A stretch of 64,000 bases of DNA from contig NZ_CP163424.1 in the NCBI RefSeq assembly GCF_041429795.1, positions 1-64,000 of the forward strand, given 5' to 3'. Made by a program: the position numbers and the translations under genes. Of this stretch, positions 1-13,215 are shown in pieces; position 1 is the first letter of the stretch, and each line of letters starts with the position of its first letter. Source of the stretch: Algimonas porphyrae. GTDB lineage: Bacteria > Pseudomonadota > Alphaproteobacteria > Caulobacterales > Maricaulaceae. The notes below the pieces were generated by a model. It was given only the letters and a program-made list of their open reading frames with translations. It was not told the DNA's origin and did no database searches.

Positions 1-1488
1 ATGGGAAGAGTGAGTGATCCGGTCAATGGCTCAGGCGAGACGGTGCCGGATCTCTATACAGGGGAACCGCCCATTCAGAGCGCGCACAATACGTGGAAAG
101 CCGTCGATGAGGACTTGGCACGGGCGCTCGGCAGAAACGTGCACCGCGCTTGGACAGGCCAGCTTTTCATCCAGACTGCCGACGCCCACCAGGTCACCTT
201 GTCCGCTCCGTCGGCTTTCGTCGCCAACAAGATCAACAAGCATTATATCGACACGATCGCCCGTCTCTGGGCCAAGCATGATCAGGTCGATCCGCCGCGC
301 ACCGTCAGCATCGTATCCGGACCGCGCCAGGCCGCACGCCGTGCGCCGCGCCTGGACGGGGAACGGCCCAGCCTGGTCGGTGTGCCCGGCAGTCGTCAGA
401 CCGGTTCAGGCCGCACCGCCCCGTCCCTGCTGCCGCCCGTTTCCGATGTGGCGCGCAAACGCTTTACCCTCGACAATTTCGTTGTCGGCCCGTCCAACGA
501 ACTGGCCTTCGCGGTCGCGCGTCAGGTCATTAACAATCCGGTGCCGCAATATAATCCGATCATGCTGCACGGCGTGAACGGCATGGGCAAGACGCATATT
601 CTGCACGCCATCGAAGCCGGGGTGAAGGACCGCGATCCGGATCGCCGCGTGCGCTTCGTCTCTGCCGAGGATTTCGTCGCACAATTCGTCGCCAGCGTGC
701 GCGGATCGGGCCGCGAGGGGATGAGCGCCTTCAAGGCCAGCTTGCGCGATGTCGACCTGCTGATCATCGACGATGTCCATTTCATCGCCGACAAATCCGC
801 CAGCCAGGAAGAGCTGCTGCACACCATTATCAGCCTGGTCGGCGCAGGCCGTCAGATCCTGATTGCGTCGGACCGCCATCCCGACACGATCGAGAAGGCG
901 TCCGACCGGCTCAAAAGCTATCTGTCCTCCGGTCTGGTCTGCAAGATCGGGCCCGCCGATTATGATCTGCGCCTGCGCATTCTCGACCGTCTGATCGCGC
1001 GCCGCCGCGAACAGGGGCATGAAACGCTCGCCATTCCCCAGCCCGCCCGCGATCACCTCGCCGCGCGCATGAACGTCACGCCGCGCGATCTGGAAGGCGC
1101 CTTCAACCAGATCGTCGCCCAGAGCCAGTTTCTCGGCACGCCGATCACACTGGAAACCGTGCAGGAAACCCTGTCCGATTCCCGCTATATGACGGGACAG
1201 CGCCTGACGGTGGACCGCATTCAGCGCACCGTCTGCGAAGCCTTTTCGATCAGCCTGACGGATATGAGTTCCAAACGTCGCGCCCGCGCCGTGGCCCGGC
1301 CCCGGCAGGTCGCCATGTACCTGTCCAAGAAACTGACCAAACGCTCCCTGCCCGATATTGGCCGCCGCTTCGGCGGACGCGACCACACGACCGTCATGCA
1401 CGCCGTCAAACGCATCACGCAACTGCGCGGCGACGACGTCACCTTTGACGCCCAGATCCGCGCGATCGAGGAAACGCTGAAGGGGTAG
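1..1488 (+). CDS. dnaA: Chromosomal replication initiator DnaA
   Basis: DnaA binds the origin and, as an ATP-bound oligomer, melts it to start replication. The 495-residue protein has the usual layout. The N-terminal interaction domain covers about residues 30-95. The AAA+ core has a Walker A motif GVNGMGKT near residue 191 and Walker B acidic residues D257-D258. The DNA-binding domain IV ends with the signature FGGRDHTTVMHA from residue 457. The length is normal for alphaproteobacteria. The ATG is the first base of the window, so its promoter and any upstream origin are not visible. The last 40 codons (from residue 456) are duplicated about 3 kb downstream, and the gene is still intact. That suggests something inserted at its 3' end and rebuilt the terminus. 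Confidence 0.98.
   Translation: MGRVSDPVNGSGETVPDLYTGEPPIQSAHNTWKAVDEDLARALGRNVHRAWTGQLFIQTADAHQVTLSAPSAFVANKINKHYIDTIARLWAKHDQVDPPRTVSIVSGPRQAARRAPRLDGERPSLVGVPGSRQTGSGRTAPSLLPPVSDVARKRFTLDNFVVGPSNELAFAVARQVINNPVPQYNPIMLHGVNGMGKTHILHAIEAGVKDRDPDRRVRFVSAEDFVAQFVASVRGSGREGMSAFKASLRDVDLLIIDDVHFIADKSASQEELLHTIISLVGAGRQILIASDRHPDTIEKASDRLKSYLSSGLVCKIGPADYDLRLRILDRLIARRREQGHETLAIPQPARDHLAARMNVTPRDLEGAFNQIVAQSQFLGTPITLETVQETLSDSRYMTGQRLTVDRIQRTVCEAFSISLTDMSSKRRARAVARPRQVAMYLSKKLTKRSLPDIGRRFGGRDHTTVMHAVKRITQLRGDDVTFDAQIRAIEETLKG
1366..1484 (+). repeat. Left copy of the dnaA 3'-end direct repeat
   Basis: These 119 bases inside dnaA recur at 4351-4469 in the same orientation without gaps. Only three bases differ (1377 a/g, 1401 c/t, 1446 t/c), and all three are silent in the DnaA frame. 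The last glycine codon just beyond also differs silently (ggg here, ggc there), and the stop codons differ (tag here, tga there). This is the candidate left attachment or crossover boundary of the inserted cassette. Confidence 0.95.
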
Positions 1489-1700
1489 CGACGAAAACGG
1501 GAAAATTATTCTGAGTTACTTGACGTGTTTCTCAAAGGCATAAGATAAATGCGGGTGGCGGTACATACGTGCCAATGGCACCCCCAATTACATTCAAAGC
1601 ATCACACTCGGTTTTACTCGCAGCCGTAGCTGTGCTGGGTTAGCCTGATGTACCGAACAGGAGCTTGCCGACGACCTCAGAGATAGCGTCGAAAGTCTGA
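1489..1700. other. Intergenic stretch downstream of dnaA, island left flank
   Basis: There is no convincing gene in these 212 bases. It is less GC-rich than dnaA. Near 1658-1743, one plus-strand frame reads a short charged stretch (EQELADDLRDSVESLIRAA) that begins after a stop codon. It could be the broken tail of a lost coding sequence, but it is too short to identify. I see no terminator hairpin right after dnaA. Confidence 0.4.
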
Positions 1701-2087
1701 TTAGAGCAGCAAATCGGCTGCAAAAAAGGCGAAGAAGCCGCCAATCAGGTAAATAGCCACAGACACCCACAAAATAATGCCACTCACTCGTCGCATGCGG
1801 TTGCAGGCCCGCGCGGCATCAGGGTCGATGGGACAGGGTGCATAGCGCGATCGCCACCGGAAAAAGACAGCCAGCGACAGCAATATTCCCGAGATAATGA
1901 AGAGCGGAACCTTCTGTTCCGTCAACCAGATATATCCGGGCACGTTGGACGCGATCCCGGCCATCACCGCCCCAGCGCCGATCGTGACAAGCAAAGCCGG
2001 CAAGGCGCAGCATAGCAGCGTCGATGTGCTGGCAAAGAGAGACAGGGTCGGCGCAAATAGACTGCGCCGAGTCAATGGTTTGGTCAT
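1701..2087 (-). CDS. MerT-like small membrane protein of a metal cassette
   Basis: This 128-residue protein has about three hydrophobic segments. Near residues 25-45 there is a vicinal-cysteine motif in a membrane helix (LLCCALPALLVTIGAG), which resembles the CC-containing first helix of MerT/MerC-type metal transport proteins. Cysteines also occur in the loop around residues 84-95 (APCPIDPDAARAC). It is the last gene of the minus-strand arm, 8 bases after the HMA-like gene, so the two are probably co-transcribed. A role in moving a soft metal across the inner membrane is inferred from the cysteines and the CsoR-linked context; the substrate is not proven. Confidence 0.7.
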   Translation of the reverse strand: MTKPLTRRSLFAPTLSLFASTSTLLCCALPALLVTIGAGAVMAGIASNVPGYIWLTEQKVPLFIISGILLSLAVFFRWRSRYAPCPIDPDAARACNRMRRVSGIILWVSVAIYLIGGFFAFFAADLLL

Positions 2088-2095
2088 GATGGGCG

Positions 2096-2542
2096 TCAGG
2101 TGCCGGACAGAATTGGCGCGCGATCGATCCGGTCAACCTTATATCCAGCACGCTTAACGAGCTCCGTCAGCGTCGCGTCATCCATGGTGGCATCTGCTTT
2201 CAAAACGAGGTTTAGCGTCTTCTCATCCAGATCGACGTAAACGGCCGACACTTCGTCACGTTTACCAAATGTCTTGTTCATTGCCATCGCACAGAAGTCG
2301 CAGACCGCACCCAATACAGTCGCGACGACGGGCTGCCCGCCTGCGGCGAGGGCCTCCATCAGTTCCGGTTGAACCGCGAGTGACAGATGGGCACCCATTG
2401 TCGTTGAAACCGCCTCACCATCCATGGTGTGGTCATGATCGGCATGTTCCATACCTGCATGGTCCATTTTCGAGTGGTCGACTTGAGCCAAGACAGGTGC
2501 GGCAAGAGCAGCGCTCAGAGCAAGTGAAAGAATAAGTTTCAT
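2096..2542 (-). CDS. Periplasmic HMA-like, His/Met-rich metal-binding protein
   Basis: The 148-residue protein has a signal peptide (about residues 1-20, ending VLA-Q). A His/Met-rich stretch follows at residues 22-40 (DHSKMDHAGMEHADHDH), of the kind that binds copper or silver in the periplasm. The C-terminal domain resembles a heavy-metal-associated fold, with CDFC at residues 81-84 followed by AMAMNKTFG and a betaalpha-type tail ending VKRAGYKVDRI. Metal capture and hand-over to the MerT-like membrane protein encoded next is a reasonable inference. The gene lies 11 bases after the stop of the outer-membrane-like protein, so it sits in the same minus-strand operon. Confidence 0.8.
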   Translation of the reverse strand: MKLILSLALSAALAAPVLAQVDHSKMDHAGMEHADHDHTMDGEAVSTTMGAHLSLAVQPELMEALAAGGQPVVATVLGAVCDFCAMAMNKTFGKRDEVSAVYVDLDEKTLNLVLKADATMDDATLTELVKRAGYKVDRIDRAPILSGT

Positions 2543-2553
2543 GAGAGTCTCCG

Positions 2554-3180
2554 TCAGAAACGATATTGAAGATTGATTTGCGCATCCTGGTCTTCGAGAC
2601 TGTAACCAATCTCAAATAAGGCCGGGCCCTTAAACAGACGCAGCAACGGCGTCACATCCACAGGGTTATCGGCATCGGGACGATGATCCACCTCTATCAT
2701 GAACCAAGTATGAAGTTGTCCCGTATCGCCCGCATAGGGAGCCCATCCGACTTTGACGGCCTGCATAGCGGACGCATCCAGCCCGTCATAATCGTGCGCA
2801 TGCGCGCGATAACCCAAAAAGACCCGTCGGGTTTCCCAGTCAGCCATCACGCCTAATTGCGACCCCAAGCCTGCACTGCCAGTATTTGACTCAACGCCCT
2901 CGGCAATGCCGACCGCGCCAAAGACATAGAGATTACCCTGAAAGTCCGGGTCGAACCAGCGCTTGGTCAGCCACGTGCCTTGGACGCCCGTAAACTGTAT
3001 ATCCAGATCACGATCCCAGGCGGTTTTTACACCCACACTGAATTTTGGGTCCGGCGTATAGTGGATTAGCGCGGAACTGGTCTGACGGTCGTTTTCCGTT
3101 ATCAGCGTCCATCCGCCTTGATACGATACAGGACGAGCCGTCGCAGACCCGGCGACGACACAGAATAATCCCGCAGTAAT
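2554..3180 (-). CDS. Outer-membrane-like protein of the copper cassette (start codon unclear)
   Basis: Unrecognised family, but it looks like an exported beta-rich protein. It has alternating aromatic strands and a C-terminal phenylalanine (INLQYRF), typical of outer-membrane barrels. The reading frame contains a clear secretion-signal core (AGLFCVVAGSATA) encoded around 3136-3177, yet no ATG, GTG or TTG lies between it and the in-frame stop at 3220-3222. The first standard start (GTG, 3036) would remove the signal and about 48 residues. I place the start at an ATT at 3178-3180 because AGGGA lies just upstream at normal spacing. A leaderless start, a mutated start codon or a sequence error are alternatives. 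It is first in the minus-strand arm, directly beside the CsoR-type operator. Confidence 0.6.
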   Translation of the reverse strand: MTAGLFCVVAGSATARPVSYQGGWTLITENDRQTSSALIHYTPDPKFSVGVKTAWDRDLDIQFTGVQGTWLTKRWFDPDFQGNLYVFGAVGIAEGVESNTGSAGLGSQLGVMADWETRRVFLGYRAHAHDYDGLDASAMQAVKVGWAPYAGDTGQLHTWFMIEVDHRPDADNPVDVTPLLRLFKGPALFEIGYSLEDQDAQINLQYRF

Positions 3181-3191
3181 GATCTTCCCTA

Positions 3192-3212
3192 ATATACCCC
3201 CATAGGGTATAT
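3192..3212. promoter_or_regulatory. CsoR/RcnR-type operator between divergent arms
   Basis: A perfect inverted repeat ATATACCC-N5-GGGTATAT has a C/G tract at its centre. That is the architecture of operators for the CsoR/RcnR/FrmR repressor family. It lies 36 bases upstream of the csoR-like gene and just upstream of the minus-strand signal peptide, so one site could repress both arms until metal binds the repressor. Confidence 0.85.
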
Positions 3213-3247
3213 GGGTTTTTCAGGATATCAACCCCGGAGTTTATGAC

Positions 3248-3535
3248 ATGTTCGACAGTTGTGACCGCAAGACGCGGCGCGCAGGCGTTGCGCGCCGCTT
3301 GGCCCGAATAGAAGGACAAGTGCGCGGCCTCTCCAAAATGATCGATGAGGACCGCTACTGCATTGATGTGCTGACGCAGGTGAAGGCCGCACAGGCCGCC
3401 CTCAAAAAGGTCGAAGGCGAATTGCTGAAAGACCATGCTGACCACTGTCTTGCGGAAGCCATCGCCAGCGATGACAAGGCCGAACGGGAACAGAAAGTCT
3501 CCGAGCTGGTTGCTCTGCTTCTGAAGAAAAGCTGA
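3248..3535 (+). CDS. csoR: CsoR-family copper-sensing repressor
   Basis: This 95-residue all-helical repressor of the CsoR/RcnR/FrmR family has the hallmark RLARIEGQVRGLSKMI segment at residues 17-32. Metal-site residues C38, H63 and C67 have exactly the spacing (25 then 4) of the Cu(I) site of Mycobacterium CsoR (C36, H61, C65). The RcnR-type and FrmR-type signatures differ, so Cu(I) is the most likely inducer. The protein should sit on the inverted repeat at 3192-3212 and release it on copper binding. The start ATG at 3248 gives the normal family length. The next gene starts 12 bases downstream. Confidence 0.88.
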   Translation: MFDSCDRKTRRAGVARRLARIEGQVRGLSKMIDEDRYCIDVLTQVKAAQAALKKVEGELLKDHADHCLAEAIASDDKAEREQKVSELVALLLKKS

Positions 3536-3547
3536 GCCGAACCGCCC

Positions 3548-4348
3548 ATGAGCATTGTCGAAGAACTGAGTGTCGAAGACACGGCACAGGGCCGAAAAGC
3601 CATTATCTACCGCATGGTAACGGATGATCACATCTGTCCCTATGGCCTGAGATCTGTCGATCTGTTGAAACGCAAAGGCTTCACGGTTGAAGACCACTAT
3701 CTCACCGACCGCCCGCAAACAGACGCATTCAAGGACAAGTGGGATGTTAAGACCACGCCGCAAACCTTTATCGGCTCCGAAACAGAGGATAACCGCATTG
3801 GCGGGTTGGACGCATTGCGCGATTATTTCGGGTACACAATAAAAGACGCAGACGCCAAGACCTACACGCCCGTTCTGGTCATCTTTGCCTTTGCTGCATT
3901 GATGTCCCTAGCGGCCGTCTGGTCGATGGACAGAAACGTATTCGCCGTCAGCACGGTCGAATGGTTCGTCGCATTTTCCATGGCCATGCTCGCCATGTTG
4001 AAACTGCGCGACTTGGAGAGCTTCGCCAACATGTTCCTGAACTATGACGTGCTCGCCCGGCGCGTCGTGCGCTACGCCTATGTCTATCCTTTTGCAGAAG
4101 GGGCTGCTGCCATCCTGATGATCGCAGGGGGTCTGTTCGGCCTGATCGCCGCGCCGATTGCTCTGTTCATCGGCAGTATCGGCGCCTGGAGCGTTTTCAA
4201 GGCCGTCTACATCGACAGGCGCGATCTGAAATGCGCCTGTGCCGGTGGCGGCACAAACGTACCGCTGGGCTTCGTCTCGCTGTCGGAAAACCTCGCCATG
4301 ATCGGCATGGGCGTCTGGATGATTGTGAAGGCTATTTCATACACCTGA
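3548..4348 (+). CDS. Glutaredoxin-MauE/DoxX fusion membrane protein
   Basis: The 266-residue protein has two domains. Residues 15-95 are a glutaredoxin-like thioredoxin fold with active-site C30-P-Y-G, which lacks the second cysteine of dithiol glutaredoxins. The later TTPQTFIG matches the cis-proline loop. Residues 105-266 are a MauE/DoxX-type membrane domain of about four helices with a conserved cysteine pair (LKCACAGGG). Such fusions probably pass electrons or thiol equivalents across the membrane to periplasmic metal or cysteine proteins. It is co-oriented with csoR and likely in one operon. Its stop codon ends two bases before the right dnaA repeat begins, so it abuts the island boundary. 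Confidence 0.85.
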   Translation: MSIVEELSVEDTAQGRKAIIYRMVTDDHICPYGLRSVDLLKRKGFTVEDHYLTDRPQTDAFKDKWDVKTTPQTFIGSETEDNRIGGLDALRDYFGYTIKDADAKTYTPVLVIFAFAALMSLAAVWSMDRNVFAVSTVEWFVAFSMAMLAMLKLRDLESFANMFLNYDVLARRVVRYAYVYPFAEGAAAILMIAGGLFGLIAAPIALFIGSIGAWSVFKAVYIDRRDLKCACAGGGTNVPLGFVSLSENLAMIGMGVWMIVKAISYT

Positions 4349-4350
4349 AG

Positions 4351-4473
4351 CGCTTCGGCGGGCGCGACCACACGACCGTCATGCATGCCGTCAAACGCAT
4401 CACGCAACTGCGCGGCGACGACGTCACCTTCGACGCCCAGATCCGCGCGATCGAGGAAACGCTGAAGGGCTGA
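4351..4473 (+). pseudogene. Displaced dnaA 3'-end fragment (right repeat)
   Basis: This second copy of the last 40 dnaA codons plus stop codon encodes the same residues from FGGRDHTTVMHA to the terminal LKG. The rest of dnaA is absent. All differences from the full-length copy are synonymous, which means both copies were maintained as functional dnaA termini until recently. The fragment cannot replicate or bind DNA on its own as DnaA. It is best read as the old native terminus left behind when the cassette arrived with its own dnaA end. Confidence 0.92.
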
Positions 4474-4625
4474 GTCGTCCCGCTGGGCTCTGTCTGACGG
4501 CGCGCAAGGCACCCGTAATGAGCGGGGAAAGATTGCCTTTCTTCATCGGGGTGCCATGCTGTAAGGCATGGAAGACGCGATTGCTTTTTTCCGCATGTCG
4601 TGAGGGAAGCCGTCGAGATTGAATA

Positions 4626-6032
4626 ATGAGTAGCCGGGCCGTAGAGTTGATAGACGCTGAGGAAATTGTCGCAACCTTGCGGGAAAGTCTTCTCGTGCTC
4701 GATGTCGATCTTGTCGTTGAATATGCGAGCGACAGGTTTTTCGAAACCTTCCAGGTGTCTCGCGAGGCGACGATCGGACGACCTCTGCAGGATCTCGGCA
4801 ATGGTCAGTGGAACATTCCGGCCCTGCTGGAGCCTCTGAACACCATCATCGAAAAGAATGTCTCGGTCGAGCAGTATAAGGTCGACCATGTGTTCGAGGA
4901 TATTGGTCGCCGGATCATGTGTCTGAATGCGCGGAAGACCGTCCGGCCCGGCAATGGATCGAAACGCATTCTCGTCGCGATCGAGGATATTACGGAAGCC
5001 GCACTCGCCGCGCAGGAACTCGAGCGTCAGCAGCGGATCATGACCGGCATGGTTCAGACCCTGCGCGAACCTCTGCTGGTGCTCGACGGAGAGTTGCGGG
5101 TCGTGGAGGCGAGCCGCGCTTTCTACCGGACGTTCAACGTCGAGCCGGGGGACACGATCGGCGAAAAGCTCTGGGATCTCGGAAACGGCCAGTGGGCCAT
5201 CCCCGAGCTTATTCATCTGCTGACCAGCGTGATACCGACGCAATCCGAAGTCGTTGACTATGAGGTCACGCACGCCTTTCCGGAGATCGGGGAGATGACC
5301 ATTCTGCTCAATGCCCGCAAAATCTACCGCAAGGGGAACGGCACGAAAACCCTGCTTCTGGCCATGCAGAACATTACCGAACGCAAGGCCGCCCAAGCGG
5401 CGCGCGAGCAGGCTCTCGCCCTTTCCAACACGCTGCTGACGGAACTGAACCACCGGGTGATGAACAACCTGTCCATGGTCAGCGCCATCGTCGGCGCGGA
5501 GCGCACCCGGATGACGGACACGGAATGCCGCGCGGCCTTCGAACGCATGCGTGACCGGATCACATCGCTGAGCCTGCTATACAGAGCCCTGTCACGAACC
5601 GGAGCCGTCGCCGAAGTCAATTCGGAAAACTATCTGGAAGGCGTGCTGCGCAATCTGCTGGAATCCTCGTCCGAGGCGCGCGCGATTGACCTCACCCTGA
5701 CGACGGATATTGCATCCATACCCATGTCGACCAGTCTCGCTCTGCCGCTCGGCCTGGTCGTCAATGAACTGGCGACGAATAGCCTGAAATATGCTTTCAA
5801 AGGTCGCCGGACGGGGGAACTGGGCGTGTCGTTGCAGCGAGACACGGATGATCTGGTCCTGAAGATATGGGATGATGGTGTCGGTATCGATCCGTCGGCA
5901 AGAACGGACTCCGGCGTCGGGCAGAAGCTGATCGACTCCCTGTCCGGCCAGCTCAAAGCCGAAACGCATCTGGAAAGCGGCGATCAGGGAACGATTACGA
6001 CGCTGATTTTTGCTGCAAAGAGCGATCAGTAA
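4626..6032 (+). CDS. PAS-PAS sensor histidine kinase, HisKA_2/HWE type
   Basis: This 468-residue soluble kinase has two similar N-terminal PAS domains (about residues 10-125 and 140-260, each containing the phrase DLGNGQW). A HisKA_2-like dimerisation domain carries the phospho-acceptor His276 in ELNHRVMNNL. The HATPase domain has an N-box VNELATNSLKYAF near residue 378 and a G-rich WDDGVGIDP near residue 417. There is no transmembrane segment, so it senses an intracellular signal. No response regulator is adjacent, making it an orphan; in alphaproteobacteria such kinases often feed the PhyR general stress response. The internal PAS duplication looks real, since the two units share several phrases. 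It lies just beyond the displaced dnaA fragment and may be the ancestral downstream neighbour of dnaA. Confidence 0.9.
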   Translation: MSSRAVELIDAEEIVATLRESLLVLDVDLVVEYASDRFFETFQVSREATIGRPLQDLGNGQWNIPALLEPLNTIIEKNVSVEQYKVDHVFEDIGRRIMCLNARKTVRPGNGSKRILVAIEDITEAALAAQELERQQRIMTGMVQTLREPLLVLDGELRVVEASRAFYRTFNVEPGDTIGEKLWDLGNGQWAIPELIHLLTSVIPTQSEVVDYEVTHAFPEIGEMTILLNARKIYRKGNGTKTLLLAMQNITERKAAQAAREQALALSNTLLTELNHRVMNNLSMVSAIVGAERTRMTDTECRAAFERMRDRITSLSLLYRALSRTGAVAEVNSENYLEGVLRNLLESSSEARAIDLTLTTDIASIPMSTSLALPLGLVVNELATNSLKYAFKGRRTGELGVSLQRDTDDLVLKIWDDGVGIDPSARTDSGVGQKLIDSLSGQLKAETHLESGDQGTITTLIFAAKSDQ

Positions 6033-6084
6033 CATTACGTCAGCCCGTCCGGCAAACTGGAACAGGTGACGCATACTATGCTAA

Positions 6085-6429
6085 GTGCGGCGCGTGACGG
6101 ACCTTTCCATAATCCTGAAACGTCTATCAGCTCTGTCCCAAGAGACACGGCTCATCGCGTTTCGTGTCCTGATGGAAGCCGGCGCGGACGGGTTGAACGC
6201 AGGAACCATTGCCAGACGGCTGACCCTTCCCCCCAACAGACTGTCCGGCCATCTGACAATCCTGGTCAATTCGGGGCTGGTCAGCGTGGAAAAGGATGGA
6301 CGGCACCTGATCTATCGGGCGCAGATCGGTGCCGTCAACGAGCTGCTGTCCTCACTCGTTGAGACCTGCTGCCACGGGCACCCGGATGTATGCGCCCCTC
6401 TATCAGATCTGGCCGCACCTCGACATTAG
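6085..6429 (+). CDS. ArsR-family winged-helix regulator
   Basis: This 114-residue protein has an ArsR-type winged helix-turn-helix: LSQETRLIAFRVLMEAG, then AGTIARRLTLPPNRLSGHLTIL as the recognition region, then a beta-wing KDGRHLIYRA. A cysteine-rich tail (ETCCHGHPDVC, about residues 92-102) could bind arsenite or another soft metal. The start is GTG at 6085; a second GTG at 6094 would shorten it by three residues. Its target is not evident. The porin gene 75 bases downstream on the same strand is the closest candidate. No ars resistance genes are nearby. Confidence 0.85.
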   Translation: MRRVTDLSIILKRLSALSQETRLIAFRVLMEAGADGLNAGTIARRLTLPPNRLSGHLTILVNSGLVSVEKDGRHLIYRAQIGAVNELLSSLVETCCHGHPDVCAPLSDLAAPRH

Positions 6430-6503
6430 ATCATTATTCGACCGAATGTTGAAATATCATTGATTCATAGCTATGTTCCCGTCCGAACGCGGGGGACGAA
6501 AGT

Positions 6504-7997
6504 ATGGGTGATATGTCTGCATCGGCGGGCTTACCCGGATTGTTTGCATGGGTTTCAAAAGCCGTTCGTGTCGGATGTCTCATCGGCGTATTGGGAATGC
6601 AATCATCGGCATGGGCTCAAGCCCCGGATCGGTCCCAGGATCAGACCCAGAATCAGACCCACAATCAGGCCCCATTCCGTCTGGAAACCGCAGTGAACGC
6701 CCCGGACTGGCTCACCCTGCGTGGCGAGACCCGCATGCGTTACGAAACGCTGGACGGCCAGTTCCGGGCAGGCGGCAGCGGTGGCGACCAGCTGCTCCTG
6801 TTTCGCTCCCTGCTTCTTGTCGAAGCCGACACAGGCCCGGTCTCGTTCGGGATCGAGCTGCAGGACAGTCGCACCTATCTCGGCGATGCGGACACGCCCC
6901 TATCGAGCAGTTTTACCAACCCGCTGGATGTGTTGCAGCTTTATGCGCGTATGGACGCCCTACCCGGCCTGCTGGGACAGGGGTCGGACAGCCAACTCGT
7001 CCTCGGGCGTCAAACCGTTTCCATCGGCTCCAAGCGGCAGATCGAACGGGTCAGCTACGCCAATGTCATCAAGAGCTTTACGGGCGCGCACTGGACGCAT
7101 GAGGCCACACGCGGCGACCAGCTGCATCTGGTCTATGTCGTGCCGACCGGGCGCTTCCCGGACATCCGGGCCGATCTGGACGCCAATCGTCTCTCTGGCG
7201 ACGAAGAACAATGGGGTCGGCGTATCTGGGGCGTGCATTACCGCAGACCGGACATACTGCCCGGTATGGTGTCCGACCTGTGGGGTGAGCTGTTTGCCTA
7301 TGGTCTGAATGAGCGGGACACATCCGACGTACCGACGCCAAATCGTTCCTATGTCGCACCCGGCGCCAGGCTCTACCGCAAGCCAATAGCCGGACGCTGG
7401 GACCTGGATGTGGAAGGCGCGCTGCGTCAGGGTCGCCGCAGGGCCACGAGCGATCCGGGTGATACGCAGCCGCTTGATGTGAACGCTGCCATGCTCATCG
7501 CCGTGCTCGGTTACGTATTCGATGCCCCCTGGCAGCCGCGCCTGTCGCTCGAGTATTACTTTGCAAGCGGCGATGACGATCCGAACGACCTCGACTTTGA
7601 TCAGCATGAACGCCTGTTCGGCGGACGGCGGACCGATCTGAACAACACCTCAATCTATGGCCCGCTCACGCCTGCCAATCTCAGCGCGCTGGGCTTTCGC
7701 GTACAGGTCACGCCGAATGCCCGCTGGGATGGCTGGTTCCAGTATCATGCGGCGTCACTGGCATCGGACACAGATCAGTGGGTCATCGCCCGTTTGCGGG
7801 ACCCATCGGGTCAGTCCGGTGATTTTATCGGCCACACGCTCGATGCGCGCGCCCGCTACTGGCTGGTTCCGGACAATCTGCGTCTGGAGCTGGGTGCATC
7901 TGCGTTGATCTATGGAGGTTTCACGAAAGATGTTCCCGATGGGCCGGACGGTGACGTGACCCTGTTCGGCTACGCGCAGGCAACGATCAGCTTTTAG
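6504..7997 (+). CDS. Alginate-export-type outer-membrane porin
   Basis: The 497-residue protein matches the alginate_exp family of 18-strand outer-membrane channels. It has the phrases LTLRGETRMRYETLDGQF, LQDSRTYLGD and LGRQTVSIGSKRQIERVSYANVI, and a C-terminal strand ending TISF. The signal peptide ends near SSAWA. A low-complexity Gln/Asn-rich linker (about residues 43-56) precedes the barrel. AlgE exports alginate in pseudomonads, but many members of this family are general porins. No alginate biosynthesis genes occur in the window apart from a distant AlgX/AlgJ-like gene at 60118, so the substrate is unknown. It may be controlled by the ArsR-type regulator just upstream. Confidence 0.85.
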   Translation: MGDMSASAGLPGLFAWVSKAVRVGCLIGVLGMQSSAWAQAPDRSQDQTQNQTHNQAPFRLETAVNAPDWLTLRGETRMRYETLDGQFRAGGSGGDQLLLFRSLLLVEADTGPVSFGIELQDSRTYLGDADTPLSSSFTNPLDVLQLYARMDALPGLLGQGSDSQLVLGRQTVSIGSKRQIERVSYANVIKSFTGAHWTHEATRGDQLHLVYVVPTGRFPDIRADLDANRLSGDEEQWGRRIWGVHYRRPDILPGMVSDLWGELFAYGLNERDTSDVPTPNRSYVAPGARLYRKPIAGRWDLDVEGALRQGRRRATSDPGDTQPLDVNAAMLIAVLGYVFDAPWQPRLSLEYYFASGDDDPNDLDFDQHERLFGGRRTDLNNTSIYGPLTPANLSALGFRVQVTPNARWDGWFQYHAASLASDTDQWVIARLRDPSGQSGDFIGHTLDARARYWLVPDNLRLELGASALIYGGFTKDVPDGPDGDVTLFGYAQATISF

Positions 7998-8056
7998 GCT
8001 GGATGGCATACGCCCCGGTCTTGGATAAAGCTGTCTCGCCCGCTATGCCGCCTCCC

Positions 8057-8647
8057 ATGATCCGCACCGCCCTCCTCGCCCTTGCCGCCCTGGCCCTCAC
8101 CGCCTGTTCCATGCAGGCCATGAGCGAGGCGCGCGTACCCGCAGACGTTCGCGCCGAAGTCAATGCCCAGATCGACCGGCTGATTGCGGGCGAAACGGAT
8201 TTCATCATCGATGCGTTTCCGGACGATGCCGTCAATCCGGCCTTTCGCGAACAGATCGCCCGCATGGTGGCCAATGTTCCGGAGGGACCGGCGCTGTCAC
8301 GCCGCGTAGTTGGCGTCATGGGCGCGACGGAGCAGGCTTATTCCGACACGCAAGGGGCCGTCCGAAGCGGGACCTACAACCTCGCCTATGAGCTGGAATT
8401 TGCGGATGGGTTCCTGCTGGTGCAGACGGCGCATACGCTGACCGAGGACGGTGATTGCTGCCTGCTTCGCGCCATCAATGCGACCCGCTCTGACACGTCT
8501 CCGCTCTATGCCGATCAGAAGCGACGGGCCAGCATCTTCAAATTCCTCGCCGTCTTCATCGTGGTCAGCACCCTCGCGACTCTCATTATCCTGATCATCC
8601 GGATCGGCGGTCGGAAGGCGCGGGAGACGCAGATGGGGGAACGGTGA
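8057..8647 (+). CDS. Lipoprotein with C-terminal membrane anchor, unknown function
   Basis: No family recognised. I chose ATG 8057 because the protein then begins with a lipoprotein signal (MIRTALLALAALALTACS, lipobox LTAC). The upstream in-frame ATG at 8003 gives a non-signal extension. The roughly 196-residue product has a soluble alpha/beta-looking middle, a CC pair in EDGDCCLLRA, and a single C-terminal transmembrane helix (FLAVFIVVSTLATLIILII) before a short charged tail RKARETQMGER. It therefore appears doubly anchored, by lipid and by helix. The last 30 codons are duplicated at 11216-11307, which brackets the next two genes. Confidence 0.75.
   Translation: MIRTALLALAALALTACSMQAMSEARVPADVRAEVNAQIDRLIAGETDFIIDAFPDDAVNPAFREQIARMVANVPEGPALSRRVVGVMGATEQAYSDTQGAVRSGTYNLAYELEFADGFLLVQTAHTLTEDGDCCLLRAINATRSDTSPLYADQKRRASIFKFLAVFIVVSTLATLIILIIRIGGRKARETQMGER
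8550..8641 (+). repeat. 3'-end segment of the lipoprotein gene, duplicated downstream
   Basis: These 92 bases align without gaps to 11216-11307 with 14 mismatches (about 85 percent identity). Both copies encode the transmembrane helix and the tail RK-RETQMGE. Each copy is soon followed by the octamer ttagcgcg or a near copy of it. Confidence 0.85.
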
Positions 8648-8652
8648 GAGGC

Positions 8653-9204
8653 TTAGCGCGGGGCGCGGCTTTCCATGTCGACGACCGATATGCCATGAAT
8701 GCGCCACGCGCCCGTACTGTAATCGAACAGAATATCGAACCGGATCTGTCGCGGTCGGTCGTCGAAACCGCCGCGCAACCGCATGATCCCGTTTTCATCC
8801 ACGCCGGGTGACAGATAGAATTCAGGTGTCTGATGGATGACGCGTCCGACATCCACACGCGCGTCCCGCAGAGGCTGAAACAGTGCCGACAGGCTTTGCA
8901 GGTTCTGCGATTGCTGAAAACCTGGCGAGCCCAGCCTGTACAAGATCGAATAGTCGCCCGTGCGATTGGCATTGTCGAGTGTGATCATGGATGTCCAGAC
9001 GAGCCTGGATAAGACCCGCTCGGACGGCAGCGGCGGAACGACGAGGCGAGCGCGACCGCTCCGCATATCGATTTTCACGCCTGTGCCGGTTTGCGGCGAC
9101 GCTTTCGATTGCGCGGCAACCGGCATCACATTCAAACAAAGGCTAAAGCACGCAACAAGGCACAGAGCCTTGAGGATGAAGCGGCTGCGAGAAGCTATGG
9201 TCAT
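8653..9204 (-). CDS. Exported protein of unknown function
   Basis: The 183-residue protein has a signal peptide (about residues 1-31, ending PVAAQ). The mature part has the phrases VLSRLVWTSMITLDNANRTGDYSILYRLGSP and a C-terminal half rich in beta strands with GGFDDRPRQIRFDILFDY and GAWRIHGISV. This pattern suggests an NTF2-like or cystatin-like small-ligand fold. Similar proteins are common in alphaproteobacteria without a known role. It is downstream of the adhesin on the same strand (56-base gap containing a strong hairpin GGCTCCCTCC/GGAGGGAGCC). It lies inside the segment bracketed by the duplicated lipoprotein 3' end. Confidence 0.75.
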   Translation of the reverse strand: MTIASRSRFILKALCLVACFSLCLNVMPVAAQSKASPQTGTGVKIDMRSGRARLVVPPLPSERVLSRLVWTSMITLDNANRTGDYSILYRLGSPGFQQSQNLQSLSALFQPLRDARVDVGRVIHQTPEFYLSPGVDENGIMRLRGGFDDRPRQIRFDILFDYSTGAWRIHGISVVDMESRAPR

Positions 9205-9260
9205 GTGATCCCCTTGCAGGCTCCCTCCTGACTGGAGGGAGCCCGTTATCGTCTGAAGGC

Positions 9261-10961
9261 CTACCAGCTCGCCTGGAAGCCGGCACGGCCACCCGTCTGA
9301 CCATTATCGATACCGGTCGTCAGACCGCCATTGATCTGGAACGTGTCATTGATGCGATACGACAAGGAGCCCGCAAACGCGTTTTCACCGTCATAGAAGC
9401 CGTAACCACCGGACACGGCCCAGGTCTGACCGAGTGGGACATAGGCTGTATCCAGTGCGATCGCCGCGGCGATACCGCCCCGGTTCTCGGCAATGGCATC
9501 GGCATTGAAGCCAATCGCTTCGACATTGGCCAGGATCGCGGCATTATTGCCGGCGATCGAGCCCGCATTGCTCTGGATCGCCAGCGCATTCGCCGCCTGA
9601 CCCCGCTGCAGCGAGAAGTCCGCGGCAATATTGCCGTTGCGGTCGGTGGTCAGCAGGCCGATCTCGCCGGCCTGGGCTGCGGTGCTGGCCGCCGATGTGA
9701 CACCGGCGATGCGGGTCGTCGCCGTAGCGCTCCCGATTGCGACCTGACCGTTCTGGGTCGCGGTCGCGCCATTGCCGATGGCGATCGAATCCGTGCCTGA
9801 TGCCGATGACTGATTGCCGATGGCGATCGAACCGGCACCGGACGCCGATGCGGCTTCGCCCACAGCTGTCGACCGGACACCGGTCGCGCTGGCAAGGTGA
9901 CCGAAGGCCTGCGCCCGTTCAGCCATGGCCATGGCACGCCAGCCAATGGCCGTGGCGCCGGGGCCCATGGCTTGGGCTTCGCCGCCCAGAACCGTTGTCG
10001 ACGGACCGTTTGCCGACGCCATCGTGCCGATCGCGACGGCATCCGCCCCGATTGCTGTGGCCATATTACCCATGGCAATGGATTCCAGCCCTTGGGCGTC
10101 GGCGGCTTCACCAACGGACAGGGAACGCACACCTGATGCGCTTGCCAGATGACCGATGGCGTGGGCGCGTTCGGCCGTCGCGGATGACTGCCAGCCAAAG
10201 GCGGTCGCCGCCAGACCGTTGGCCGTCGCTTCGCCGCCGATCGCCGTCGTCGAATTGCCGTTGGCATTGGCCATGGTGCCGAAGGATGTCGCATCGACAC
10301 CCGTCGCCATGGCCATATTGCCGATCGCGCTGGCCTGTTCGCCATTCGCCGTGGCCGCTTCGCCGACGGCGAGGCTACGCGTTCCGGTCGCGGATGCGAG
10401 ATGTCCGAGCGCGTGCGCCCGCTCGCCCGTTGCGCTGGAGCGCCAGCCAAAGGCCGTTGCCGCCAGACCGTCGGCGACGGCTTCGCCACCAACCGCCGTT
10501 GTCGAATTACCGTTGGCGCGGCTTTCCGTCCCGATTGCGACGGCATCGACGCCGACTGCATTGGCCAGATTACCCATGGCGATGCTTTGCTCGCCGGCGG
10601 CAGAGGCCGCTTCGCCAACCGCGAGCGACCGCACGCCTGTTGCGCTGGCCAGATGACCGAAGGCCTGCGCCCGCTCCGCCGTTGCGGATGCGCGCCAGCC
10701 GACAGCCGTCGCGCCCGGACCGGTCGCCGTGCTCTCTCCGCCAATGGCCGTTGTGGACGGTCCGGTCGCACTCGATGCTTCACCGACGGCAACGGCGTCC
10801 TCACCCGTGGCCGTGCTGTTCTGGCCGCACTCCAGCGCCGTGCCCGTCGGCTCCGTCGCCGATGAATTACACGGGGCCGTCCCATCCGCATAGGCAGCGG
10901 GCGCGAAGGCTAATGCGCCCAGCAGCGCAGATGTCACAAAGAGGCGTGATTTGATCGTCAT
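9261..10961 (-). CDS. Trimeric autotransporter adhesin (YadA-like)
   Basis: This 566-residue surface adhesin of the type Vc secretion family begins at ATG 10961, which gives a good signal peptide (MTIKSRLFVTSALLGALAFAPAAYA). The passenger head is a run of 14-residue left-handed beta-roll repeats with the core SxAxGxxxxAxG. A short stalk follows (about residues 430-500, with IQSNAGSIAGNNAAILAN). The C-terminal YadA anchor (about residues 495-566, ending GGRAGFQASW) would form the trimeric barrel. Such proteins bind host, surface or sister-cell ligands. The repeats are organised in four 84-residue super-units. The gene is transcribed toward the exported protein at 8653. Confidence 0.93.
   Translation of the reverse strand: MTIKSRLFVTSALLGALAFAPAAYADGTAPCNSSATEPTGTALECGQNSTATGEDAVAVGEASSATGPSTTAIGGESTATGPGATAVGWRASATAERAQAFGHLASATGVRSLAVGEAASAAGEQSIAMGNLANAVGVDAVAIGTESRANGNSTTAVGGEAVADGLAATAFGWRSSATGERAHALGHLASATGTRSLAVGEAATANGEQASAIGNMAMATGVDATSFGTMANANGNSTTAIGGEATANGLAATAFGWQSSATAERAHAIGHLASASGVRSLSVGEAADAQGLESIAMGNMATAIGADAVAIGTMASANGPSTTVLGGEAQAMGPGATAIGWRAMAMAERAQAFGHLASATGVRSTAVGEAASASGAGSIAIGNQSSASGTDSIAIGNGATATQNGQVAIGSATATTRIAGVTSAASTAAQAGEIGLLTTDRNGNIAADFSLQRGQAANALAIQSNAGSIAGNNAAILANVEAIGFNADAIAENRGGIAAAIALDTAYVPLGQTWAVSGGYGFYDGENAFAGSLSYRINDTFQINGGLTTGIDNGQTGGRAGFQASW
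9768..10775 (-). repeat. Four 252-bp super-repeats in the adhesin head
   Basis: Each 84-residue unit consists of six distinct 14-residue repeats that recur in the same order. Their ends are typically GGE, GWR, GHL, GEA, GN(L/M/Q) and GT(E/M). Four full super-units run from 10775 down to 9768, followed by one more 14-residue repeat. The higher-order periodicity implies that whole 252-bp blocks were duplicated, so copy number may vary between strains. Confidence 0.9.
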
Positions 10962-11357
10962 TAGATGTCCATTTCCTAGAAGAGTTCCCAAGTTGCTGCC
11001 CGCCCGTTATCCATCGAGCTTTCAGAGATAAGGACTGTCCAATTGTTCGATGCTCAAACGGCACCGACCTTTCTTAAGTCATTTTATCTTTCGGGCATTG
11101 CTGTTACGTTTCTCCGGTCGCGTTTGGTGCAAGACTATCGAAATTTTTATGCCGATCCTGCAAAGTCCACTGTCATCCGGACGGAGACGCCGGGTCAGCA
11201 TCGTCTAAGGCCTCACCGTCTTCATCGCGGCGAGAACACTGGCCACCCTCATCATTCTGATCATCCGGATTGGCGGCCGGAAAACGCGGGAGACGCAGAT
11301 GGGGGAAGGTTAGCGCGTTTGCCTTGAACGCAGCCGTCCACCCGCTAAAGTCGGGCC
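10962..11357. other. Intergenic region between the adhesin and the SIR2-like gene
   Basis: No complete gene is supported. Bases 10962-11215 are less GC-rich and probably hold the adhesin promoter on the minus strand. Bases 11216-11313 are a broken copy of the lipoprotein gene's 3' end. The SIR2-like gene starts 44 bases later. Confidence 0.6.
11216..11313 (+). pseudogene. Fragment of the lipoprotein gene 3' end
   Basis: In the plus-strand frame starting just after a stop (taa near 11208), this reads VFIAARTLATLIILIIRI then GGRKTRETQMGEG and a tag stop. It matches the last residues of the lipoprotein at 8057-8647. The differences include several silent ones, so the copy seems to derive from a diverged but functional gene rather than a very recent duplication. 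It has no start codon or signal of its own. Confidence 0.8.
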
Positions 11358-13199
11358 ATGGGGAAATACACGAACGCCGACATTAAACGCATTGCCAATG
11401 CGATGCGGCGACAAGCGGCGGACAATCCTGAGCGCCCCTATGCGCTGATGATTGGCGCAGGCTGTTCCAAATCTGCGGGCATTCCGCTGGCGGGGGCGCT
11501 CGTCGAGGAAATCAAAGTGACCTACCGGCACGAAATCGAACGCGTCCTCGGCACGGATTGCGACGATGATTATGGCGCCTGCATGGCGGCGCTATCCGCC
11601 AGCGAAGTGCGCGCCGTTCTGAAACCCTATCTCGACGACGCGGGCGTCAACTGGGCGCATCTGGGGATCGCCTGCATGATCCGCGCCGGATATATCGGCC
11701 GTGTCCTGACCTTCAATTTCGACTCCGTTCTGGCGCGTGCCTGCGGGCTTCTGGGTCTCTACCCGGCGACCTATGATTTCGTCACAGGCGTTTCGACCCG
11801 CACCAATTTCATCGTGACCCCCGCTATTCTTCACCTCCACGGCCAAGGCCACGGTTTGGCGCTTCTGAATAGTGCGGAGGAAACGCAGGAGCATGCCGAA
11901 AATCTGCGCCCACTCCTGACCGATACATTAAGCCGACATCCTATGCTCGTGGCCGGGTATAGCGGGGAGTCGGATGCCGTCTTCAATGTCCTCGCGGACG
12001 TCTTCGATGGGGAGCAGAGATTTTGCTGGGCGGGGCATGACACAGACTGCCCCGAACATGTGAGCACGCTTCTGTCCAAACGCGTCGGGTCATCAGAATA
12101 TATTGGAGAGGCTGACGCCGATCAGTTCTTCGTTGACCTCGCGACCGAACTGGGATGCTGGCCGCCCAAGCTGTTCACCAACCCCTACGCCCATATGCTG
12201 AGAGAATTAGACCCCGTCATCGACTATCCGGGCCCGGACACGGACCTGTTGTCAGAGACCCGAACCGAATTGGAAGCCCGGGCAAAAGAGGCCGACGCGG
12301 AACAGGACACGGCGCGCGACCTTCTGATGAAAGGGGACTATCAGGGGGTGATCGATAAGCTGGGAGAGGATCCAGAAACAGAGGAAGATCGCCATATTCT
12401 CGGCTACGCCTTGATGCGGATGGCCAATGCGCTCAACGAGCGGATCGGACCGGACTTTACGTCGAATGATCGCAAGACAATGCTCGCCCTGTATGATCAG
12501 GCGTCGCATTATCTCACTAACGATCATACCACTTTCTATAATTGGGGGCTGGCGCTTCAAACCCTGGCCGAGCAGACGCAGGACGAAGCTCTGTTCCGCG
12601 AATGCTTCGAGAAATATGCCAAAGCCACGGATATCAAGCCAGACGATCACATGGCCTTCAACAATTGGGGGCTCGCACTACAGGCCTTAGCCGAGCAGAC
12701 GCAGGATGAAGCCCTGTTCCGTGAGAGCTTCGACAAATATGCCAAAGCCGTAAGGATCAAGCCGGACAAACAGGAAACGTACTACAATTGGGGGAATGCC
12801 ATTAAGGCTCTGGCCATGCAGACCCAGGATGAGGCCCTGTTCCGAGAGAGCTTCGACAAATATGCGAAAGCCACTGAGATCAAACCGGACGATCACATGG
12901 CTTACTACAATTGGGGAGGCGTACTATTAACAGCCCATGAGTTGTTTAAAAATTCTGATTATCTGGACTTGGCTGGACCAGTGTTAGAAAAGGCGAAATC
13001 TCTCAATCCTGACGACCTCTATAATTTCGCCTGCCTTCGCACGCTGCAAGGCCGCGAAGACGACGCCATGGCGGCGCTTTTGCACTGTCAGGCGGCGGGC
13101 AAACTCCCCAGCCTCGCTCACCTGCAAACCGATACCGACCTCGACCCTCTCCGCGAGCGGGACGATTTCAAGGCGCTGCTGGCGCGCCTTGAAAAATGA
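11358..13199 (+). CDS. SIR2-like domain protein with TPR repeats
   Basis: The 613-residue protein has an N-terminal SIR2-like domain (about residues 15-270): a nucleotide-binding motif LMIGAGCSKSAGIPLAG near residue 31, TFNFDSVLARA near residue 117 (family consensus TxNYD) and HLHGQGH near residue 158. The C-terminal half is a TPR array (about residues 330-560), including three nearly identical 41-residue units. SIR2-like domains in anti-phage proteins such as ThsA and DSR1/2 hydrolyse NAD, and repeats often serve as sensors. A single-gene abortive-infection role is therefore plausible, but it is inference. It has no clear operon partner; the next genes are on the other strand. Confidence 0.82.
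   Translation: MGKYTNADIKRIANAMRRQAADNPERPYALMIGAGCSKSAGIPLAGALVEEIKVTYRHEIERVLGTDCDDDYGACMAALSASEVRAVLKPYLDDAGVNWAHLGIACMIRAGYIGRVLTFNFDSVLARACGLLGLYPATYDFVTGVSTRTNFIVTPAILHLHGQGHGLALLNSAEETQEHAENLRPLLTDTLSRHPMLVAGYSGESDAVFNVLADVFDGEQRFCWAGHDTDCPEHVSTLLSKRVGSSEYIGEADADQFFVDLATELGCWPPKLFTNPYAHMLRELDPVIDYPGPDTDLLSETRTELEARAKEADAEQDTARDLLMKGDYQGVIDKLGEDPETEEDRHILGYALMRMANALNERIGPDFTSNDRKTMLALYDQASHYLTNDHTTFYNWGLALQTLAEQTQDEALFRECFEKYAKATDIKPDDHMAFNNWGLALQALAEQTQDEALFRESFDKYAKAVRIKPDKQETYYNWGNAIKALAMQTQDEALFRESFDKYAKATEIKPDDHMAYYNWGGVLLTAHELFKNSDYLDLAGPVLEKAKSLNPDDLYNFACLRTLQGREDDAMAALLHCQAAGKLPSLAHLQTDTDLDPLRERDDFKALLARLEK
12540..12908 (+). repeat. Three near-identical 41-residue TPR units
   Basis: Units at 12540-12662, 12663-12785 and 12786-12908 each encode NWG-x-A-(I/L)-(Q/K)-x-LA-(E/M)-QTQDEALFRE-(C/S)-F-(E/D)-KYAKA followed by an IKPD turn. 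They are far more alike than TPR units normally are, which points to recent tandem duplication of 123 bp within the gene. Confidence 0.9.
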
Positions 13200-13215
13200 C
13201 TGAGCGTATCCGCCC

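Follow-up and report, generated by a model that had tools for sequence, protein, structure and literature searches.

How a block of metal-related genes came to lie between two copies of the end of dnaA is the question raised by the start of the Algimonas porphyrae chromosome. We analyzed the first 64,000 nucleotides of contig NZ_CP163424.1 (the window), in which a full-length dnaA is followed by a 3-kb cassette and then by a second, partial dnaA 3' end. The preliminary description of this locus saw here the structure left by elements that integrate at the end of a conserved gene and restore it with their own copy. Based on the differences between the two copies, the gene content of the same junction in related genomes, and searches for similar arrangements elsewhere, we consider it probable that the 3-kb insertion was left by one-sided homologous recombination with DNA of a close relative. 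A new kind of mobile element is disfavored, an ordinary product of one-sided recombination being most likely.

The two dnaA ends

The duplication comprises the following features.

1..1488, plus strand: full-length dnaA, encoding 495 amino acids (aa), 86% identical to the DnaA of Algimonas arctica (genome G006)
1366..1488, plus strand: left copy of the dnaA 3' end (the 119-nt repeat 1366-1484, then GGG TAG)
4351..4473, plus strand: right, orphan copy of the dnaA 3' end, with its own stop codon TGA
4349..4350: novel joint between the cassette end and the truncated dnaA tail, two bases past the stop codon of the mauE-like gene, the last of the cassette

The direct repeat of 119 nt (1366-1484 and 4351-4469) has three mismatches (97% identity) and a start-to-start distance of 2,985 bases, in agreement with the preliminary description, but it ends at 1484, before the dnaA stop codon at 1486-1488. 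Both copies are codon-parallel up to the stop, reading GGG TAG on the left and GGC TGA on the right, and the duplicated piece is better viewed as the last 123 nt of dnaA, stop included. As was also claimed, the left copy completes the 495-aa DnaA and the right one is an orphan that lacks the 5' part of the gene and whose 5' boundary falls at an arbitrary position within dnaA. The window contains only two exact direct repeats of at least 25 nt (44 and 38 nt), both within this dnaA-end repeat. By comparison, mononucleotide shuffling of positions 1-10000 (200 replicates) gave longest exact direct repeats of 11-16 nt, and 14 nt or more was reached in 33 of these shuffles and in none of 20 in a coarser control.

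The copies differ at six bases, namely the synonymous third positions 1377, 1401, 1446 and 1485, and positions 1487/1488 that distinguish TAG from TGA. All six differences are silent, with no amino acid change. The probability that random coding changes would all be silent, computed with transition weights from 1 to 8, is 0.015-0.03 for the three differences within the repeat and 0.004-0.01 once the fourth (1485) is counted. Since silent-only divergence suggests that both tails were selected as dnaA ends, the two copies would come from separate genomes, and it seems more likely that they diverged there as working dnaA ends. The common final codon followed by different stops, together with the silence of all differences, indirectly favors two alleles. 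The identity of 97% is well above the 81-87% measured for the five best-scoring relatives, and therefore a close but distinct donor fits.

An internal duplication would account for part of these observations, the tail of dnaA having been copied during an unrelated insertion, for example by break repair with template switching, and having drifted later. Such an origin would make a donor dnaA unnecessary, and it agrees with the 97% identity of the copies and with the fact that no donor was found. A freely drifting orphan, however, is not expected to show silent differences only, including a stop-codon swap, at the probabilities given above, and we regard this origin as unlikely. An assembly artefact near the contig start, which the preliminary description had named as a danger to its own reading, is scarcely credible. 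The assembly was judged from the contig sequence; dnaA begins at its first base, and the repeat sits close to the contig start; but the genome is a single contig of 3,169,281 bases in which the flanked sequence occurs once at full length, and the copies differ at six positions.

The cassette and the junction behind dnaA

The following features lie between the two copies.

1489..1700: intergenic DNA following the left copy (49% GC)
1701..2087, minus strand: MerT-like small membrane protein (Pfam MerT, below the curated cut-off)
2096..2542, minus strand: heavy-metal-associated (HMA) domain protein, just under the Pfam cut-off, with weak MerP and CopZ matches below cut-offs
2554..3195, minus strand: probable outer-membrane protein, an assignment made by visual inspection of its termini
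3192..3212: perfect palindrome ATATACCC-N5-GGGTATAT between divergent genes, annotated in the analysis only as terminator-like
3248..3535, plus strand: CsoR-type metal-sensing repressor (Pfam Trns_repr_metal, E 9.8e-29; best NCBIfam match RicR, below cut-off)
3548..4348, plus strand: weak glutaredoxin-like domain fused to a MauE-like membrane domain

The earlier statement that only metal-handling genes separate the copies holds in part: the cassette proteins are assigned to metal handling by weak to strong family matches, with the exception of the outer-membrane candidate, whose called open reading frame (ORF), 2554-3036, matched nothing in Pfam or NCBIfam. The curated cut-offs of Pfam are exceeded by the CsoR-type and MauE matches but not by those to MerT and HMA, and therefore the cassette is presumed to be a copper cassette from the CsoR type. 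The palindrome at 3192-3212 is likely the CsoR operator, as judged by the operator consensus. In the outer-membrane gene, no ATG, GTG or TTG is present at the position, further upstream, where the homologues in G007 and G013 begin, and this gene may use a rare start codon or be poorly expressed. No integrase was found among the ORFs and domain matches between the copies, as had been noted before. RNA folding of both flanks was unremarkable. None of the family-genome matches to 1489-1700 begins before about position 1691, and no informative match pointed to a source for the stretch behind the left copy (1489 to ~1690) or for the one behind the right copy.

Genes of the cassette recur at other places in the genus. 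The block of csoR, outer-membrane, HMA and MerT genes is present in G007, G008, G011, G013 and G014, with neighbors common to the last four, and G002 has the outer-membrane/HMA/MerT block without csoR at a contig edge. Judged by these comparisons, the set consists of ordinary chromosomal genes of the genus. A MauE relative sits elsewhere in the genome of A. arctica, and the host itself carries a second, more distant csoR/mauE pair at ~1.493 Mb. Among 80 of 197 loci with MauE relatives, a csoR relative directly adjoins the MauE relative in two (L047 and L055), and no DnaA C-terminus (E 0.01 or better) was detected in the stretch examined around the glutaredoxin-MauE relatives, at most 10 kb on either side, in any of the 80.

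The far side of the junction is marked by w8003, and the DNA between the orphan tail and this gene is listed here.

4474..8002: further accessory DNA at the junction
4626-6032: PAS/HisKA_2 histidine kinase
6085-6429: ArsR-type regulator
6504-7997: alginate-export-type porin
8003..8647, plus strand: w8003, a conserved gene without a Pfam match, on the far side of the presumed hotspot

A homologue of w8003 lies downstream of dnaA in four of 17 relatives (G006, G007, G012 and G017), while the other 13 have other genes there. G007 and G012 have an empty junction, with 10 and 4 bases, respectively, between the dnaA end and the called w8003 start; both genomes are drafts, with a completeness of 85% and 70%. 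The gap measures 3.2 kb in G006, with genes for an aldehyde dehydrogenase and an NAD(P)-binding protein, and 3.5 kb in G017, with metE and a thioesterase gene. Neither gap has a dnaA repeat, and no integrase was found among the ORFs inspected in them. The corresponding 6.5 kb in the window contain the cassette, the orphan tail, and the histidine kinase, ArsR-type regulator and porin genes. Altogether, two of the five genomes with w8003 after dnaA have an empty junction, and the other three carry different DNA there. If our reading of the locus is right, the dnaA/w8003 junction would be an insertion hotspot in relatives of Algimonas.

The repeat of a gene segment thus bounds DNA that is foreign to this site, as shown by the empty junctions and by the two that are filled otherwise. 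Our results support the part of the preliminary description according to which the locus arose by insertion and dnaA stayed whole, the imported DNA apparently bringing its own dnaA 3' end, and we consider it likely that the insertion renewed the end of dnaA. The empty site foreseen there was only partly recovered, since G007 and G012 are empty but the exact junction of dnaA with position 4474 was not found. The stretch 4474-8002 is itself accessory, because it has no match in 16 of the 17 other genomes of the genus; the remaining one, G015, has a single 113-base match. The opposite outcome, the same cassette in place in all relatives, did not occur either, as described below for the extended set.

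A second accessory block (8648-13215) lies between w8003 and an M56/M23 peptidase gene. It is regarded as accessory because in G006 and G017 the relative of this peptidase comes after w8003, followed in G006 by lepA. The block includes two further features.

9261-10991: YadA-type adhesin
11358-13199: SIR2-TPR protein, with partial PADLOC matches to the SIR2 parts of candidate defence systems (PDC-S65, SIR2-pAgo)

Searches for elements at the dnaA end

Genomic islands occupy the 3' ends of tRNA genes, guaA, prfC, yicC and similar genes. Like these islands, the present locus shows a direct repeat of the 3' end of a conserved gene and an insert that restores the gene. It was described at first as a possible member of an element class that targets dnaA. 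A site-specific integrative element with the dnaA 3' end as its attachment site, whose integrase has been lost or acts in trans, would explain how dnaA stays whole via an imported 3' end, why the direct repeat is long, and why the insert differs in composition (55% GC, versus 63% in dnaA and 59% in the window). The host genome also has six Phage_integrase matches, all outside the window and the nearest at 162 kb.

Searches for a second case found none. In the family, 129 of 137 genomes gave a match to a 42-residue query from the DnaA C-terminus (eight had no match), and a second dnaA end beside dnaA was restricted to the host, with none in the 136 other genomes (128 with a match). Nine of these others have a second DnaA C-terminus match, each on another contig; eight of the nine are in open frames of 120-168 aa, and the ninth, in G149, is in a frame of dnaA length. 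The G149 draft has two such dnaA-length frames with a DnaA C-terminus, on contigs C126 and C171 (484 and 466 aa), possibly owing to contamination or to a true paralogue. In a sample of 289 genomes drawn from the larger class, a six-sequence profile matched 281, and 28 genomes, the host included, had two or more matches by our reading of the table. No second dnaA end was detected beside dnaA in the 288 other genomes (280 with a match). Among the genomes listed fully (those 28 and two family genomes), the host was the only one in which a second match and dnaA shared a contig at a distance of under 100 kb. Draft contigs may end near dnaA in the genomes searched.

Shorter traces were sought by comparing the last 200 nt of dnaA with the 6.4-15 kb downstream in 37 relatives, recording exact matches of at least 11 nt. 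In none of the 37 did a repeat rise above background: the longest was 15 nt (G102) and the rest were up to 13 nt, whereas controls with other parts of dnaA reached 16 nt and the window gives 44 nt. Some control values of 59 were ignored as artefacts of slices reaching beyond the locus start.

Attachment sites made of a dnaA tail were not evident in viral, plasmid or phage records, although short sites are invisible to the method used. The viral search covered the best 80 of 360 confirmed stretches (IMG/VR contigs, L124-L203). In 76 of the 80, an open frame of at least 60 residues runs ahead of the DnaA-like end; of the remaining four, three run off the end of the locus and L158 has 33 residues. 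Matches to earlier parts of DnaA were also present in 19 of the 80, three of them over no more than 42 residues. Twelve plasmid matches were rejected as carriers of a dnaA tail, being chromosome-sized records (1.46-4.6 Mb), and so was the single phage match, a hypothetical protein of a Bradyrhizobium phage.

In the viral matches, the end resembling DnaA domain IV lies within 50 residues of the frame end in 77 of the 80 contigs, the frame is 110-400 aa long in 65, and 61 have no match to the rest of DnaA. On these domain matches, viral contigs often appear to bear a DnaA-box-binding-like domain on other proteins. The host chromosome likewise encodes a 123-aa protein with a region similar to DnaA domain IV (L257:6331-6702, G000:C1 ~1,336,500), and many of the listed multi-match genomes also have open frames (110-174 aa) matched in this way.

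Two features of integrase-borne islands were looked for. No recombinase was found between the repeats, in a search that covered the ORFs and domain matches there and Phage_integrase matches across the host genome, but no profiles of serine recombinases and no dnaA surroundings of the relatives. Use of the same site by other elements was not found across the family, class and 37-relative searches. Unlike known gene-end islands, the locus has silent differences spread along its repeat, no other member in the searched genomes, and a site at which other cargo occurs without repeats. Together with the absence of evident att-like tails in the viral stretches and the nature of the plasmid and phage matches, these results argue against the integrative element, which we regard as rather unlikely. 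A more specific version, in which a minimal integrase-less cassette entered the dnaA 3' end with its own tail as att and a recombinase in trans, in an otherwise unsampled lineage of marine alphaproteobacteria, is quite unlikely. None of the searches made supports a family of elements that target dnaA, and other cargo bounded by dnaA-end repeats, which the preliminary description proposed to look for, did not turn up in the searched genomes.

Streptococcal prophages or satellites are known near dnaA/dnaN. No report of elements at the dnaA 3' end was found in the literature covered, which left most subscription journals outside.

Several candidate articles were set aside. In PMC8407400, dnaA serves as a landmark; the main text of PMC9345347 has no dnaA passage; PMC6563490 names only a DnaA-like ATPase; and PMC4907049 places oriC at dnaA. 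In PMC10457174, an ISEcp1 unit lies behind a dnaA gene carried on a plasmid, which is a transposition and not a gene-end island. The larger tandem duplications by transformation in PMC3784515 were not used as support.

Probable one-sided recombination at dnaA

The reading that we prefer, one-sided homologous recombination, would begin with an incoming fragment that carried the last ~120 bases of a relative's dnaA and the metal cassette behind them. By one route, the fragment would be circularised and enter by a single RecA crossover in dnaA. By the other, a linear fragment would pair homologously at the dnaA end and be joined illegitimately at its other end. Either route would produce a complete dnaA with the host 5' part and a donor or hybrid 3' end, followed by the cassette, the truncated tail and the host downstream DNA. 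Directly observed are the repeat, its exclusively silent differences, the lack of an integrase between the copies, the variable junction with its empty sites, and the missing dnaA repeats in the searched genomes; donor, crossover and joining are inferred. Also in favor of this reading are the arbitrary 5' boundary of the orphan, the position of the other joint two bases past the last cassette gene, the different cargo without repeats in G006 and G017, and the ordinary chromosomal character of the csoR, outer-membrane, HMA and MerT set in the genus.

Experimental precedents for such products exist. In PMC3240628, a non-replicative plasmid introduced into Escherichia coli gave a product diagnostic of duplication in 56 of 60 recombinants, 14 sequenced duplications measured 109-950 bp, and they were ascribed to a single crossover of circular molecules missing part of the homologous piece. 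The present locus resembles these insertions in that foreign DNA lies between a partial gene-end duplication, here of 119 bp, with no integrase. It differs in being natural, in an alphaproteobacterium and at dnaA, in having a slightly different second allele, and in that the event was unobserved. The linear route resembles homology-facilitated illegitimate recombination, with one homologous anchor and one illegitimate joint, as described in PMC3240628 and PMC5361080; the latter proposes a linear variant for orphan immunity genes displaced downstream in type VI secretion system (T6SS) clusters. In contrast to the duplication observed here, homology-facilitated illegitimate recombination (at lacZ) was predicted to yield deletions in PMC3240628.

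Several points weigh against one-sided recombination. The silent test draws on no more than three or four changes, and it was conceived once the differences were already known. A homology of 119 bp is short for RecA recombination, and the repeat ends together with the gene, as elements that target gene ends would also produce. The cassette was not found encoded downstream of dnaA in any of the 37 relatives (17 and 20) within the stretch examined, so no donor was identified there; the genome collection holds one genome per species, and therefore the donor may simply be unsampled. The host has a ComEC homologue, and therefore uptake of free DNA is possible, but the uptake machinery was judged from this one widespread family, which was also matched in 10 of 14 control genomes.

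If the reading of one-sided recombination is right, the locus would be a clean natural fossil of such an event at an essential gene. A gene-end repeat with cargo would then not need to imply an integrase, which would matter for island-calling programs that use such repeats.

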